Origin: Polycladidibacter stylochi
Lineage (GTDB): Bacteria; Pseudomonadota; Alphaproteobacteria; Rhizobiales; Stappiaceae
Assembly (NCBI RefSeq): GCF_001562055.1
Contig: NZ_LLWE01000021.1
Span: forward strand, 1 to 48,899
Direction of reading: 5' to 3'
Length of the DNA: 48,899 nt
The notes under the pieces are model-generated. The model made no database searches. It was not told the DNA's origin and worked only from the letters and a program-made list of their open reading frames with translations. Positions 28,703 to 35,812 of the stretch are shown here, piece by piece (within the stretch, counting starts at the first letter, position 1; each line of letters opens with the position of its first letter). Made by a program: the position numbers and the translations under genes.

Positions 28703-28738
28703 AATGCGCCCTTGCCATTAAAACGCTAAGGGCGCATT
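28703..28738 (+). terminator. Hairpin terminating the cytochrome c peroxidase unit
   Basis: AATGCGCCCTT (28703-28713) pairs perfectly with AAGGGCGCATT (28728-28738) over a 14-base loop. AGAAATTTTAA follows. A second 7-bp hairpin (28629-28654, CACCAAA/TTTGGTG) sits closer to the stop codon. Confidence 0.7.
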
Positions 28739-28790
28739 AGAAATTTTAACTAACTACAACCCATGCAAGAAACTCTGATATTTTTTCCCG

Positions 28791-28820
28791 TTGACAAATG
28801 CAAAAAAATGGCGATAGATT
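28791..28820 (+). promoter_or_regulatory. Probable sigma-70 promoter of the tna operon
   Basis: TTGACA (28791-28796), 18-base spacer, TAGATT (28815-28820; 4 of 6 matches to TATAAT). It would start transcription about 55 bases before the TnaC leader peptide. I see no clear CRP site upstream. Confidence 0.5.
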
Positions 28821-28881
28821 TGCTTTGTAACACTTCGGAAACTTAAGTAATAGTTTTACGAAGACTGATGAGGATATCACC

Positions 28882-28980
28882 ATGAGCCGGTCTCTTCTGG
28901 TTCCAGTACATAACGCTCCAGCGTTTACAAAATGGTATAATCGCGACGTCATGCTCGCCTACGATTTCCCTCGCGCCTAA
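28882..28980 (+). CDS. tnaC: TnaC-type tryptophan-sensing arrest leader peptide
   Basis: A 32-codon frame: ATG 28882, stop TAA 28978-28980, with GAGG placed 8 bases upstream. The C-terminal half contains K-W-Y-N-R-D, and Pro30 lies exactly 12 residues after Trp18, with Asp22 four residues after Trp18. E. coli TnaC has K11-W12-F13-N14-x-D16 and P24, the same spacing, and those residues are the ones needed for tryptophan-induced ribosome arrest. I19 of E. coli corresponds to Leu25 here. Unlike E. coli, two codons (Arg, Ala) follow the Pro, as in Proteus, where tryptophan blocks elongation rather than termination. It lies 332 bases upstream of tnaA. In E. coli the arrested ribosome hides a Rho loading site and so turns the operon on. 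Confidence 0.85.
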   Translation: MSRSLLVPVHNAPAFTKWYNRDVMLAYDFPRA

Positions 28981-29312
28981 TCCTGCAAGGAATTATAATC
29001 CTGTAATCTACTGAAATAACATATAAATTGTTATTACTAGCATGCCATTGGGAGATGGTGGGTGGTCGGTAGATAACATAATCATGCAGCCAAACTCTCA
29101 AAAAGAATCAATCAATAGCTGGTCTATAGCATGGCATAAACATTTATTCGTTTAAGCCTCAATAGTACTCTATTGTCTATTTCAGTTTTGTAATGCTGAA
29201 ATTTAGAGAGTTTGAAGCGAGATTAAAGATAAATAAAAGTAGAACCCAAGTAATTCTGTGTCTTTAGATTCAGTCTGTGGGAGAGCTACGTCAAGTAAAT
29301 TGGATGAAAATC
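28981..29312 (+). promoter_or_regulatory. Untranslated spacer between tnaC and tnaA
   Basis: About 330 AT-rich bases with no open frame of note and no strong intrinsic terminator. A few weak dyads are seen, for example TCCTGCAAGGA right after the tnaC stop. In E. coli the equivalent spacer (about 220 bases) contains the Rho-dependent terminators relieved by TnaC arrest. The same control is expected here, but the Rho sites cannot be pinpointed by eye. Confidence 0.55.
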
Positions 29313-30796: not shown

Positions 30797-32074
30797 ATGG
30801 CTGAAACTATTGAAACTGGAAATATTTCGCAAGGTAAAGATAAGGTCTCACCTTCATTTATCGGGGGGGCAATGATAATTGCCGGCACAGCAGTCGGGGC
30901 GGGCATGTTCTCTGTACCCACAGTCAGTGCCGGAATGTGGAGCATTTGGGCAATCATTGCTTTGGTATTCACTTGGTTTTGCATGTTGCATTCGGGGCTG
31001 ATGATTTTGGAAACCAACCTTAATTATCCTGTTGGTTCCAGCTTTGACACTATGGTAAAGGACACGCTTGGCAATGCGTGGAATATCGTCAACAACCTTT
31101 CGGTAGCGTTTGTCGGTTATATCCTTTGTTATGCTTATATCTCTGGCGGCGGCTCTATTGTTAGCCATACACTTACCGCCACCATTGGCTTTGCCCCGCA
31201 GCCAATGATTTCAGGCCTGATATTTGCCTTGGGTTTGGCATTTTTTGTCTGGTGGTCCACCAAAGCGGTAGATCGCATCACCACAATTATGCTGGGCGGT
31301 ATGATCATCACCTTCTTCATGTCGGTCACCGGCTACACATTAAATGTGAGTGCAACTAAGTTCTTTGATAGCGACAGTAATATGGGTTTGTTTTCATACT
31401 TCCCGTTCCTGTTTGCAGCATTACCCTTCTGCCTGGCCTCTTTTGGCTACCACCATAATGTACCCAGCTTGATGAAGTACTACGGTAAAAAACCGCAGGT
31501 CATCACCAAATGCCTTGTAACCGGTACAGTCATTGCGCTGCTGCTCTATCTGTTCTGGCTACTGGCAACACTGGGGAATATCTCGCGGCCAGACTTTATT
31601 CCGGTTATCGAAAAAGGCGGCAATATCGGCGTTCTTGTGGCGGCCCTAAGTGAAACCGTCAGTAGCGCTACAACATCCAACCTGCTATCCGCATTTGGGA
31701 ACATGGCGGTTGCCAGCTCGTTCCTTGGCGTATCGTTGGGCCTGTTTGACTTTTTGGCAGACTTGCTGAAGTTTGATGATAGCCGACAGGGTAGGGGTAA
31801 AACAGCGCTTGTTACATTCCTGCCACCGCTTATTGGCGGTATCTTCTTCCCTGATGGCTTTATTATGGCTATTGGTTTCGCAGGTCTTGCCGCAACAGTT
31901 TGGGCCGCTATTGTGCCAGCATTAATGGTGCGTCAAAGCCGGAAGAAATTCGCAGGCCAAACCTACAGGGTCTGGGGTGGCGACGCCTTGGTCTTCACTG
32001 TTGTAGGCTTTGGTCTACTCATTGCTATTAGTCATATTCTCGGCATGTTGCATATGCTGCCGGTCTATCCATAA
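30797..32074 (+). CDS. tnaB: Tryptophan/tyrosine permease (TnaB/Mtr/TyrP family)
   Basis: A 425-residue aromatic amino acid transporter of the HAAAP family with about 11 helices. The first helix has the family signature [30 protein letters not shown] and Y-Y-G-K further on are also typical. It should import tryptophan for TnaA, with the tna context favouring tryptophan over tyrosine. It follows tnaA, as in E. coli tnaCAB. The pyridoxal kinase gene starts 14 bases after its stop. Confidence 0.92.
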
Positions 32075-32088
32075 CACGAGGCACGCAC

Positions 32089-32943
32089 ATGAAAGGCGTT
32101 CTTTCCATCCAGTCACATGTCACCTACGGTCATGCCGGCAACAGCTGTGCGGTATTTCCAATGCAGCGCAGCGGTCTGGAAGTCTGGCCTATTTATACGG
32201 TTCAGTTTTCCAATCACACCCAGTATCCGCAGGGTTGGACAGGCCGCGCCATGAGCGGCGATGAAATCCGTGAAGTGTTCAATGGCTTGTGCAAGTTAGA
32301 ATGCCTTTCAGACATTAAAGCCATCGTTACCGGATATCTTGGGGCACCAGGGCACAGCGAAGTTATCGCAGATATTGTAAAAGAAGTGAAACAACACAAT
32401 CCAGATTGCCTGTTCGTCTGTGACCCGGTTATGGGTGATCCGGCAAAAGGTTGTATTGTCTCCGATGGCGTGGCAGAGAACCTTATCGATATTCTGCTAC
32501 CCATGGCAGATGTTATTGTCCCCAATCAGTATGAGTTGACCCAGTTCACTGGGGTAGAAATCAACTCCCTACAAGATGTGAAAGCAGCCTGCACCAAAGC
32601 GCATGGCAAAGGGCCGCAAACCATCGTGGCTAAGCATTTGCACAGCTTGTCTGACCAAGCCTTTTCCATGGCACTTTCAAATGGCGGCGAATATTATCTA
32701 GCGCAACGCCCGCACTTGCCGTTCGAGCGGCAACCGGTTGGTGTTGGCGATCTTATTTCTGCGTTATACACCGCAGGTGTGCTGAACGAAAAAACACCAC
32801 AACAAGCCTTTGAGCATCTTAACAATGCAGTTTATGGTGTCTTGAAAGCAACAAAAGCGCAAGGTGAATGGGAGCTACAAACCATTGCAGCTCAAGAAGA
32901 GCTGGTTGCGCCAACCGCGTCATATAAACTTGAAAAATTCTAG
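32089..32943 (+). CDS. pdxY: Pyridoxal kinase (PdxY family)
   Basis: A 284-residue ribokinase-like enzyme phosphorylating pyridoxal to PLP, the cofactor of tryptophanase. N-terminal S-I-Q-S-H-V-T-Y-G-H-A-G-N-S-C-A is the substrate-binding signature of PdxK/PdxY. D-P-V-M-G-D and P-N-Q-Y-E-L-T-Q-F-T-G follow. The catalytic Asp is in G-V-G-D-L-I-S-A-L-Y (the classic G-x-G-D). E. coli PdxY has 287 residues. Its place inside the tna operon suggests cofactor supply is tied to induction of TnaA. The gene ends 8 bases before ridA. Confidence 0.93.
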   Translation: MKGVLSIQSHVTYGHAGNSCAVFPMQRSGLEVWPIYTVQFSNHTQYPQGWTGRAMSGDEIREVFNGLCKLECLSDIKAIVTGYLGAPGHSEVIADIVKEVKQHNPDCLFVCDPVMGDPAKGCIVSDGVAENLIDILLPMADVIVPNQYELTQFTGVEINSLQDVKAACTKAHGKGPQTIVAKHLHSLSDQAFSMALSNGGEYYLAQRPHLPFERQPVGVGDLISALYTAGVLNEKTPQQAFEHLNNAVYGVLKATKAQGEWELQTIAAQEELVAPTASYKLEKF

Positions 32944-33376: not shown

Positions 33377-35812
33377 TTAAAACTTGTAGGAACCAATTGC
33401 TTGCGTGAGTGTGTCTGCGGCACGTTTCACATCACTGGAAACCTGATCAGTCCGCTGGGCATTTTGTGCAGTTACTTCAGCTTCACTATGAAAAGCCTCC
33501 ATGGACATGTGCAATGCCTGCGCACCCGCAGCAGCTTCTTGGGCGCCACTGGCAATCTGCCTGCTATTGTCGCTGATCTGGTCAATGCTCTGGCTCACTT
33601 GCTGCGTGCTGGCAACGGATGAGATTAAACGCGAAGAAATTTCCTGAGCCGCATCATTTTGTGTGGTAGAAATTGAGCTGATTTGGCTCACGGCGTTATG
33701 CATGTCGCTTATAATCTCGGTTATGCTTCCGATAATTTCATTCACGTTTCCGCTGGAACACTGAATATTTTCAATTCTTTGCTGAATATCCTGCGTTGCT
33801 TTTGCGGTTTCCTCGGCCAATTGCTTTACTTCACTTGCAACAACCGAAAAACCTTTGCCTGCTTCACCAGCGCGTGCCGCTTCAATGGTGGCGTTCAAAG
33901 CAAGCAGATTGGTTTGGTTCGCAATCTTTTTGATTATCTCCACCACTTCACCAATACCGTCAGCTGCCATGCTGAGCGTTCCAACAGTTTCATTTGCTTG
34001 TGCCGTTAACTGGTCGGCATGTTGGGCAACGTTGGAAGCTTGTTCCGACCTATTCGCCACTTCACCAATAGAGGCTGTCAGCTCATGCAAAGCATCGCCC
34101 ACCAGCTCCATGTTCTGTGAAAGAGTTGATGCACTCTGCGAAATACCACTGATTTCGCCATCAATAGATTGCAAGAGCTCACTCATACCATCCACCTCCT
34201 GCGCCATTGCTTGGTTACTGGCAGTGACATCACGAGATTGCTGCGACATCTCCTCGGCGCTGGAGGCAAGTACGCCACTAACCGAGCGCATATGGACCGA
34301 ATGATCCTGCAGATTGTCGGAGGCGCTGTTTATTTGCCGCAGCAAGTGCTGTATGCGTTCAAGAAACGTATTGAACAAATAAGCAATTTCGGCAGCTTCA
34401 TCGCCATTTTCCACCTGTAATCGCTTGGTCAAATCACCACTACCAAAAACGACATCTTCCAAGCGTTGTTGTAAAAGGCCAGTCCCAAGGCTTGCCTTAT
34501 GCTCGGCTATATTCAAACCGACAACTTCTTGTTCCGCGCTCACACGTAATTTGAAAAAGCGATTGACGGCTAAGCACATGATATAGGCAACGCTAAATGA
34601 ATAGAGGAAGATATAGACAACACCTTCCAACTGGATAATAAACTGATCCCAGTGAGAGCCCGATACCAGTAAGCTTTCATCGCCAACGAGTGCAAGCAAT
34701 AGCGTGCCGACAGCACCGCTCACCCCATGCACAGGAACAGAGCCAATAACATCATCTATTTTAAGGTAATGCGTCATAATATAGCTGCTGAAATGCATCG
34801 CCAGTCCACTGGCCACACCAATTGTTATGGCTCCCCATGCATCCACCACATTACATCCAGCAGTAATACCAACCAATCCGGCAATGACCCCATTCAAAGC
34901 CTGATCGGGGTGGAAGTGTTGGGTTTTGATACGGTCCGCAATAATGGCAGCAGCGCCACCGAAAACCGATGAGAGAATCGTGTTGAATACGATAGGTGCA
35001 AAGTCAGAGTTACCAACTGTTGTTGAACCGCCGTTAAAACCGATCCAGCCAACCCACAATATAATTGTGCCAAGCGAGCTTAAAACAAGACTATGCCCTT
35101 CCATCGGGTTAACGGTGCCGGTTTTCCCATCATATCTACCAAGGCGTGGCCCTATGACAAGACAAGCTGCCAAAGCTACCCAGCCCCCGACGGAATGCAC
35201 AACTGTTGAACCGGCAAAGTCCATGAAGCCGTGACGTATGAGGTAGGTATCGACTTCGGGGTTCAAAAGGTTACCCCAGGCCCAGTGCCCGACAACAGGG
35301 TATATAAAGAGCGCGATTATAATGGTGACTAAAATATAGCCGGTAAAGCGCATACGCTCGGCTACCGCGCCAGAAACAATTGTTCCGGCAGTACCGGCAA
35401 AGACGGCTTGAAAAACAAAGAAAGTATAAACCCAAGGATCGTCGGCGCTACGAAAAGCAGCTAGCGAACTGCTAAAACCAAACCAGTCGCCTATAGGGCT
35501 GCCAAACATAATGGCGAAACCTAAAAAATAAAAAACAGTAACGTTGATTATTAAATCAACAATGTTCTTTTGAGCGACACTAATTGAATTTTTTGAACGC
35601 ACCTTGCCAGCTTCAAGCAGCAGAAAGCCACCTTGCATAAACAGCACTAAAGCAGCGGCGAGCATGGTCCAAATGTGATTCAGGCTATCTTGCTGCTCGG
35701 CAAACTTTGCCTCAACAGCGGCACTTAAAACACTTTCTGTTTCGGCAAAGCTATTAGTTGAGAATAAAAGAATGGTTAGTATTGTAATAAAGGTGAAACT
35801 TCTTCTTCGCAT
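33377..35812 (-). CDS. Amt ammonium transporter fused to a methyl-accepting chemotaxis signalling domain
   Basis: An 811-residue fusion. Residues 1-23 are a signal peptide, as in many Amt proteins. About 40-445 is a full Amt domain with 11 helices. The twin-histidine pore is intact: His206 in D-F-A-G-S-T-V-V-H and His362 in P-V-H-G-V-S-G, with Asp198 matching D160 of AmtB. Amt ends at [13 protein letters not shown]-like linker follows (G-D-L-T-K-R-L-Q-V, about 459-495). The rest (about 510-811) is a coiled-coil MCP domain whose hairpin tip is intact ([21 protein letters not shown], 630-650). No periplasmic ligand domain is present, so the Amt part must be the sensor. The likely role is chemotaxis toward ammonium, possibly also transport. 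The frame is continuous, so this is not an assembly artefact joining two genes. Confidence 0.93.

Follow-up and report, generated by a model that had tools for sequence, protein, structure and literature searches.

A TnaC-type leader peptide before tryptophanase in Pseudovibrio and a putative TnaC-derived sensor before tyrosine phenol-lyase

The window, by which we mean the whole 48,899-nt stretch of DNA analysed here, carries a tryptophanase operon in the order tnaC-tnaA-tnaB-pdxY (Table 1). Its genus is Pseudovibrio, of the lineage Alphaproteobacteria, in agreement with the alphaproteobacterial host suggested in the initial annotation; as grouped here, the genus comprises 16 genomes including the window's own, 13 of which possess tnaA. 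The window TnaA scores 746 bits against the tryptophanase subfamily model PRK13238, above cut-off, and 797.7 bits against the tnaA equivalog model TIGR02617, below the cut-off of 825.8. The tnaA-tnaB-pdxY order is the same in the window and at the 12 other Pseudovibrio tnaA loci; the position of pdxY 3' of tnaB at all 13 offers a plausible cofactor supply for TnaA, a PLP enzyme. On the reverse strand, close to this ammonia-releasing operon, lies a gene (33377-35812) for an 811-aa protein in which an ammonium transporter (PF00909) is fused with the signalling domain of a chemotaxis receptor (PF00015); one narrow literature search had no report of such a fusion among the matches listed.

Table 1. 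Coordinates of the features discussed, in window numbering unless a locus is named.
Feature	Position	Strand	Evidence
Sigma-70-like promoter, TTGACA-18-TAGATT	28791..28820	+	consensus scan, weak evidence
Ribosome-binding site TGAGG	28869..28873	+	invariant columns T159-G163, alignment A2, 10 Pseudovibrio leaders
tnaC leader ORF, 32 codons + TAA	28882..28980	+	translation, homologues, shuffles
tnaC residues W18, D22, F29, P30	28933-28935, 28945-28947, 28966-28968, 28969-28971	+	
tnaC tail after Pro, Arg-Ala	28972-28977	+	
tnaC-tnaA spacer, expected attenuation site	28981..29312	+	
tnaA, tryptophanase, 465 aa	29313..30710	+	TIGR02617, PRK13238, tree
tnaB-like tryptophan permease	30797..32074	+	PRK10483, 595 bits, above cut-off 515
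pdxY, pyridoxal kinase	32089..32943	+	PRK05756, 342 bits, above cut-off 292; synteny
tpl leader examples, each including 120 nt of upstream flank	L046:5695-5913; L048:6608-6826 (-)		
Three-way-junction RNA	L048:6145-6265 (-); L052:5673-5793 (-); L051:6352-6472; six more		

The leader frame translates as MSRSLLVPVHNAPAFTKWYNRDVMLAYDFPRA, followed by TAA, and is a short ORF immediately before tnaA, within a tna operon that also encodes a permease. Its W18, D22 and P30 stand at W-x3-D and W-x11-P (W-x3-D-x7-P overall), the same spacing as W12, D16 and P24 of E. coli TnaC, which reads MNILHICVTSKWFNIDNKIVDHRP in NC_000913.3; the core is KWYNRD in the window and KWFNID in E. coli. On these features of sequence and position we identify the ORF as a real TnaC, a relative of the E. 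coli tryptophan-sensing peptide, and so uphold the identity first proposed for it. The GAGG ribosome site (28870-28873, within TGAGG) and the distance of 332 bases from the tnaC stop to the tnaA ATG were confirmed as well. The TTGACA promoter held up in part: the hexamer is present, but a single promoter-like match was found against a mean of 2.7 expected in shuffles, and we do not treat it as a meaningful signal. Rfam gave no match to the window at gathering threshold, and in the tnaC region only chance-level matches.

Lack of the W/D/P pattern upstream of tnaA in relatives had been named as a result that would refute this identity; it was not observed, and the leader is present in 13 of 13 Pseudovibrio tnaA genomes, the window's included, 258-383 nt before the tnaA match. 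With the start assigned to the closest ATG that lies 14 or more codons before the Trp, ATG and Trp are 17 codons apart in all of them, and D at W+4, L at +7 and A-Y-D-F-P at +8 to +12 are invariant. Among the 10 distinct sequences of the 13 leaders, pS and pN are 0.505 and 0.089 for the W-to-P core and 0.423 and 0.313 for the loosely constrained N-terminal half; the core is under purifying selection at the amino-acid level. The tail after Pro comprises four residues in 11 congeners, six in another and two in the window's TnaC alone.

The range of this peptide was examined by scanning GTDB species genomes for W-[YFH]-x2-D-x3-A-Y-D-F-P, a pattern that by design excludes E. coli-type TnaCs and other C-termini. 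The scan returned 41 stretches, 33 of them true matches (31 upstream of tnaA, two upstream of the tyrosine phenol-lyase gene tpl) and eight unrelated. Seven of the latter, inside a long Bacteroidota ORF that is probably Lgt, were set aside, as was L103, whose locus has no tnaA or tpl match. The true matches come from Pseudovibrio, Tistrella mobilis (plasmid pTM3), Aquitalea, Vogesella, Shewanella, Enterovibrio and Photobacterium, the same leader preceding TnaA in each of the six genera besides Pseudovibrio. Tistrella mobilis is also an alphaproteobacterium, and the matches span alpha-, beta- and gammaproteobacteria, which bears out the wider range that had been suggested. In all 33, between two and six residues follow the Pro, most often two, a tail left free by the search pattern. 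A tail is thus the norm in this Phe-Pro branch of TnaC; the two-residue tail to which attention was first drawn is real and singular within Pseudovibrio, but tails as such are ordinary here.

Of 385 genomes sampled across the class, 10 have a TnaA-like gene at 1e-50. Four of these carry a TnaC, namely the window's genome and three Tistrella-like ones, and the other six (seven TnaA-like genes) have no leader within 1.5 kb. One locus of these six genomes, L061, shows a stray W-x3-D 1313 nt upstream of its TnaA-like gene. No leader was found upstream of the TnaA-like genes L015, L109, L112, L113, L121, L114, L152 and L157, with L111 left out of that scan; L114 has a stray W-x3-D at 978 nt. Other TnaC-like leaders upstream of tnaA have W-x3-D and lack a Pro at W+12, such as SPWYNLDYTLSLLSKESSLH, AWYTLDHQLSFHLSSE and KWYNCDFRLVRACLHC; these, at loci L108, L110, L116, L117, L142, L143, L144, L154, L155, L174 and L175, are possible natural Pro-less forms of TnaC. 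A literature search, with subscription journals mostly outside its scope, gave no TnaC of alphaproteobacteria, Labrenzia, Pseudovibrio, Tistrella, Aquitalea or Enterovibrio among the matches listed.

Phylogeny points to the source of the operon. In a 75-row tree, Pseudovibrio TnaA forms one clade (100/99) nested in a 26-row clade (99/99), while E. coli TnaA occupies a separate long branch. The other 13 rows of the larger clade are nine from Photobacterium, Enterovibrio and Shewanella and four from further genomes, three belonging to a single family in which Vibrio-like leaders also occur, and L109, placed to phylum only. Those genomes with G handles that are called gammaproteobacterial here are so placed from their tree neighbours and from leaders matching named Vibrio records. 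Because Pseudovibrio TnaA is nested among marine gammaproteobacteria, the pattern suggests one transfer of tna from that group into the Pseudovibrio lineage, as had been supposed. Relatives sharing 79-81% identity occur on records of Vibrio and Photobacterium whose type is given as plasmid, some of these records being as large as a second chromosome.

Sensing by E. coli TnaC provides a template for the window peptide. As described in passages of PMC8429421, free L-Trp sits between A752:U2609 and W12, I15 and D16; psi746, G748 and uL22 K90 hold the ligand backbone, the last of them at the carboxylate. Most of these ribosomal contacts are kept: the window genome's 23S rRNA retains U746, G748, A752, A2058, A2059, U2585 and U2609, with U2586 changed to C (L163) and uL22 Lys90 to Arg (L162). 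A residue that E. coli TnaC needs for sensing, Ile19 (W+7), is replaced by Leu in each of the 13 Pseudovibrio TnaCs and in the other tailed TnaCs of the scan. The same passages report that R23F in E. coli TnaC lowers the tryptophan required for half-maximal arrest ~30-fold and that Phe is common at this position in homologues (PMC8429421). Phe precedes the Pro in 13 of 13 Pseudovibrio TnaCs, and also in the 33 true scan matches, where the scan required it.

We consider it very probable that the ORF is the tnaC of a transferred tna operon and that a predicted tryptophan-dependent elongation stall at Pro30 would induce that operon. While the ribosome translates codon 30, nascent TnaC would lie in the exit tunnel, where W18 and D22, together with the 23S pair A752:U2609, would form a pocket capturing free L-tryptophan; the complex would then stall, Phe29-Pro30 lying in the peptidyl-transferase centre. 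Because codon 31 is Arg and not stop, the stall is predicted to block peptide-bond formation with Pro30 in the P site, which makes arrest during elongation plausible for this TnaC. The stalled ribosome would keep the transcript open, and tnaA, tnaB and pdxY would be made when tryptophan is plentiful, presumably through relief of attenuation, Rho-dependent or otherwise, in the spacer. This step after stalling is unsupported in the window genome because its spacer contains neither an intrinsic terminator (0 found) nor a clear C-over-G bubble (C 0.15, G 0.20; best 78-nt stretch 17 C/10 G).

Other explanations must be weighed against this induced-stall reading. Short ORFs are common enough for the frame to have arisen by chance, yet in dinucleotide shuffles of 28712-29312 even a loose pattern (W-x3-D-x7-P, 0-6 further residues, stop, and an in-frame Met upstream) appeared in just 4 of 20000 and, when restricted to W[FY]NxD, in none of the 20000; combined with conservation of the leader across the genus, which rules out a chance ORF, this leaves the idea a negligible probability. 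The Trp codon could also belong to a classical attenuator that senses charged tRNA-Trp instead of free tryptophan. That would be highly improbable with one Trp codon only, with D and P positions and a W-to-P distance kept that a codon counter does not need, and with catabolic genes, which are expected to be induced and not repressed by tryptophan.

Two further alternatives grant that the peptide is TnaC. It might be a relic of the transferred operon, an ORF that survives and regulates nothing on an alphaproteobacterial ribosome, as the uL22 K90R, U2586C and Ile19-to-Leu changes and the missing terminator would allow; against this, purifying selection on the core and retention throughout the genus render such a fate quite improbable. 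Alternatively, the stall could come at termination, after slow addition of Arg31 and Ala32, so that the E. coli mechanism has simply moved two codons. Tails of two to six residues vary freely (RA, RR, NV, NACV, SIWRKP), and therefore selection on the tail itself is not tight, which suits that alternative. However, Pro stands at W+12 and is separated from the stop in all 33 scan matches (Pro being fixed by the scan, the tail not) and in every Pseudovibrio TnaC, and the tailed TnaC of Proteus vulgaris is said, in a 2009 J Bacteriol paper, to stall in elongation. We regard a termination stall as unlikely.

The window gene is a TnaC of known type, and what is surprising is a second leader, outside the window, upstream of tpl. 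A tpl gene above the curated cut-off occurs in 11 of the 16 genus genomes (five checked singly) and is absent from the window's genome. In all 11 (L042-L052), a 32-codon TnaC-like ORF lies 668-689 nt before the tpl match, with the length and the 17 codons from ATG to Trp of the window TnaC, and a TnaB-like permease gene lies 3' of tpl. A typical example reads MRWYQLYLNILKRDKLPWHIEDVSMANNLHLV, and the leaders of the two P. exalbescens genomes read ...PWHVDDRTVAYDFPAL and ...LWHIDDVTVAYDFPAR. All 11 keep the W, the D at +4 and the A at +8, hence the W-x3-D spacing, while W+12, always Pro in Pseudovibrio TnaC, is Pro in two and His in nine. The His-type ORF has pS 0.419 and pN 0.058 (seven distinct sequences of nine), a ratio of 0.14, and 0 of 621 adjacent-spacer windows fall below 0.39; because its pN/pS lies below all of these windows, the His-type leader is a peptide under strong selection at the amino-acid level. 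The tpl leader is a TnaC-derived peptide and putative sensor, and the nine His types, which lack Pro at W+12, are not filed as TnaC.

The two leaders differ at positions of the predicted ligand pocket. At W+1, 13/13 TnaCs have F or Y, whereas ten tpl leaders have H and one has P. The residue at W+3, which corresponds to the ligand contact Ile15 of E. coli, is Glu or Asp in 11/11 tpl leaders and 1/13 TnaCs, counts in which the rows are related by descent, and in none of 24 distinct other TnaC cores, a hand-picked set. The one TnaC with an acidic W+3, that of G002 (WFTEDI), weakens this residue as a mark of tyrosine. Tyrosine would fit the E. coli TnaC pocket too loosely, according to a passage of PMC8429421. 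Our hypothesis is that the acidic W+3 could hold the tyrosine hydroxyl. Pseudovibrio sp. D323 is described in part of PMC3164381 as making phenol, with output raised strongly by L-tyrosine (data not shown in that paper); a greater supply of substrate could by itself account for this increase.

The spacer of the nine His-type tpl leaders also contains a 120-nt three-way junction, 328-346 nt after the leader stop, with 36 pairs, 96.6% of cells paired and nine pairs changed on both sides; 0 of 500 shuffles were as good, for a structure derived from the same nine sequences. With 150 candidates scored per genome, a covariance model found it once per genome on the forward strand in the nine His-type genomes; in seven of these, weak matches also appeared on the reverse strand at that position. 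The model found none in the two Pro-type or the other five genus genomes. Rfam gave only chance-level matches to the L048 tpl leader region, and no kin. The RNA accompanies the missing Pro, being present in 9/9 His types as against 0/2 Pro types, and because the two Pro-type genomes are one lineage, both changes may represent a single event. Outside Pseudovibrio, no convincing leader was found within 1.2 kb of tpl at the 10 of 12 over-cut-off loci scanned (L139 and L141 were left out). Two strays were set aside, a W-x3-D in a 30-codon frame 639 nt upstream at L105, with no Met before the Trp, and a full W-x3-D-x7-P in a 67-codon frame 1124 nt upstream at L133. No tpl leader or arrest peptide was among the matches listed in the literature search, which left subscription journals mostly outside its scope.

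The tpl leader of these sister species may be a new amino-acid sensor. Our tentative proposal, to which we give somewhat less than even weight, is that TnaC was copied before tpl and retuned into a tyrosine-sensing arrest peptide, and that the His types stall at [Asn/His]-Asn-Leu-His, coupled to the RNA ~340 nt downstream. The peptide keeps the W/D scaffold and could bind the tyrosine hydroxyl through the acidic W+3 in the ligand pocket, and in nine of the 11 genomes the His-type motif would replace Tyr-Asp-Phe-Pro at the stall site. If true, a nascent peptide would here sense tyrosine, a natural example of altered ligand specificity in a small-molecule sensor of the ribosome. Cells with TnaC-like leaders before both tryptophanase and tpl, differing at pocket-lining residues, form a natural experiment, and these differences make ligand choice by a nascent-peptide sensor directly testable. 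More broadly, these findings extend predicted TnaC-type tryptophan sensing to alpha- and betaproteobacteria, and the E. coli stop directly at Pro appears to be one version among others, with Phe-Pro and a short tail common in a large branch whose Phe-Pro is fixed by scan design and whose tail is not.

Compared with E. coli TnaC, the window peptide has the same W-x3-D and W-x11-P, the same KW[FY]NxD core, the same place before tnaA-tnaB and the same 23S pocket positions. It differs in its two codons after Pro, in Phe instead of Arg before Pro, in its 32 residues versus 24, in Leu at the Ile19 position and in its host, which is alphaproteobacterial and has uL22 Arg90. Residues after the critical Pro, and hence a sense codon in the A site, are common to the Proteus vulgaris and window TnaCs, the tail being Lys-Leu in the former and Arg-Ala in the latter. 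The laboratory mutant TnaC(R23F), as described in part of PMC8429421, shares Phe-Pro at the stall site; there a stop codon follows, whereas in the natural Phe-Pro versions two to six residues do. The tpl leader shares with the window TnaC its 32 aa, 17-codon ATG-to-Trp interval, W-x3-D and A at W+8, and differs in having tpl downstream, a spacer of 668-689 nt and, in 9/11, the three-way-junction RNA. Similar in form are the TnaCs of Tistrella mobilis pTM3, Vogesella, Enterovibrio, Shewanella and Aquitalea, which like the window's read W-[FY]-x2-D-I-x-L-A-Y-D-F-P plus two residues but have an unlike N-terminal half and spacers of ~140-270 nt; the FPRA ending of the window TnaC recurs in Tistrella, Vogesella, one Enterovibrio and one Aquitalea MAG.
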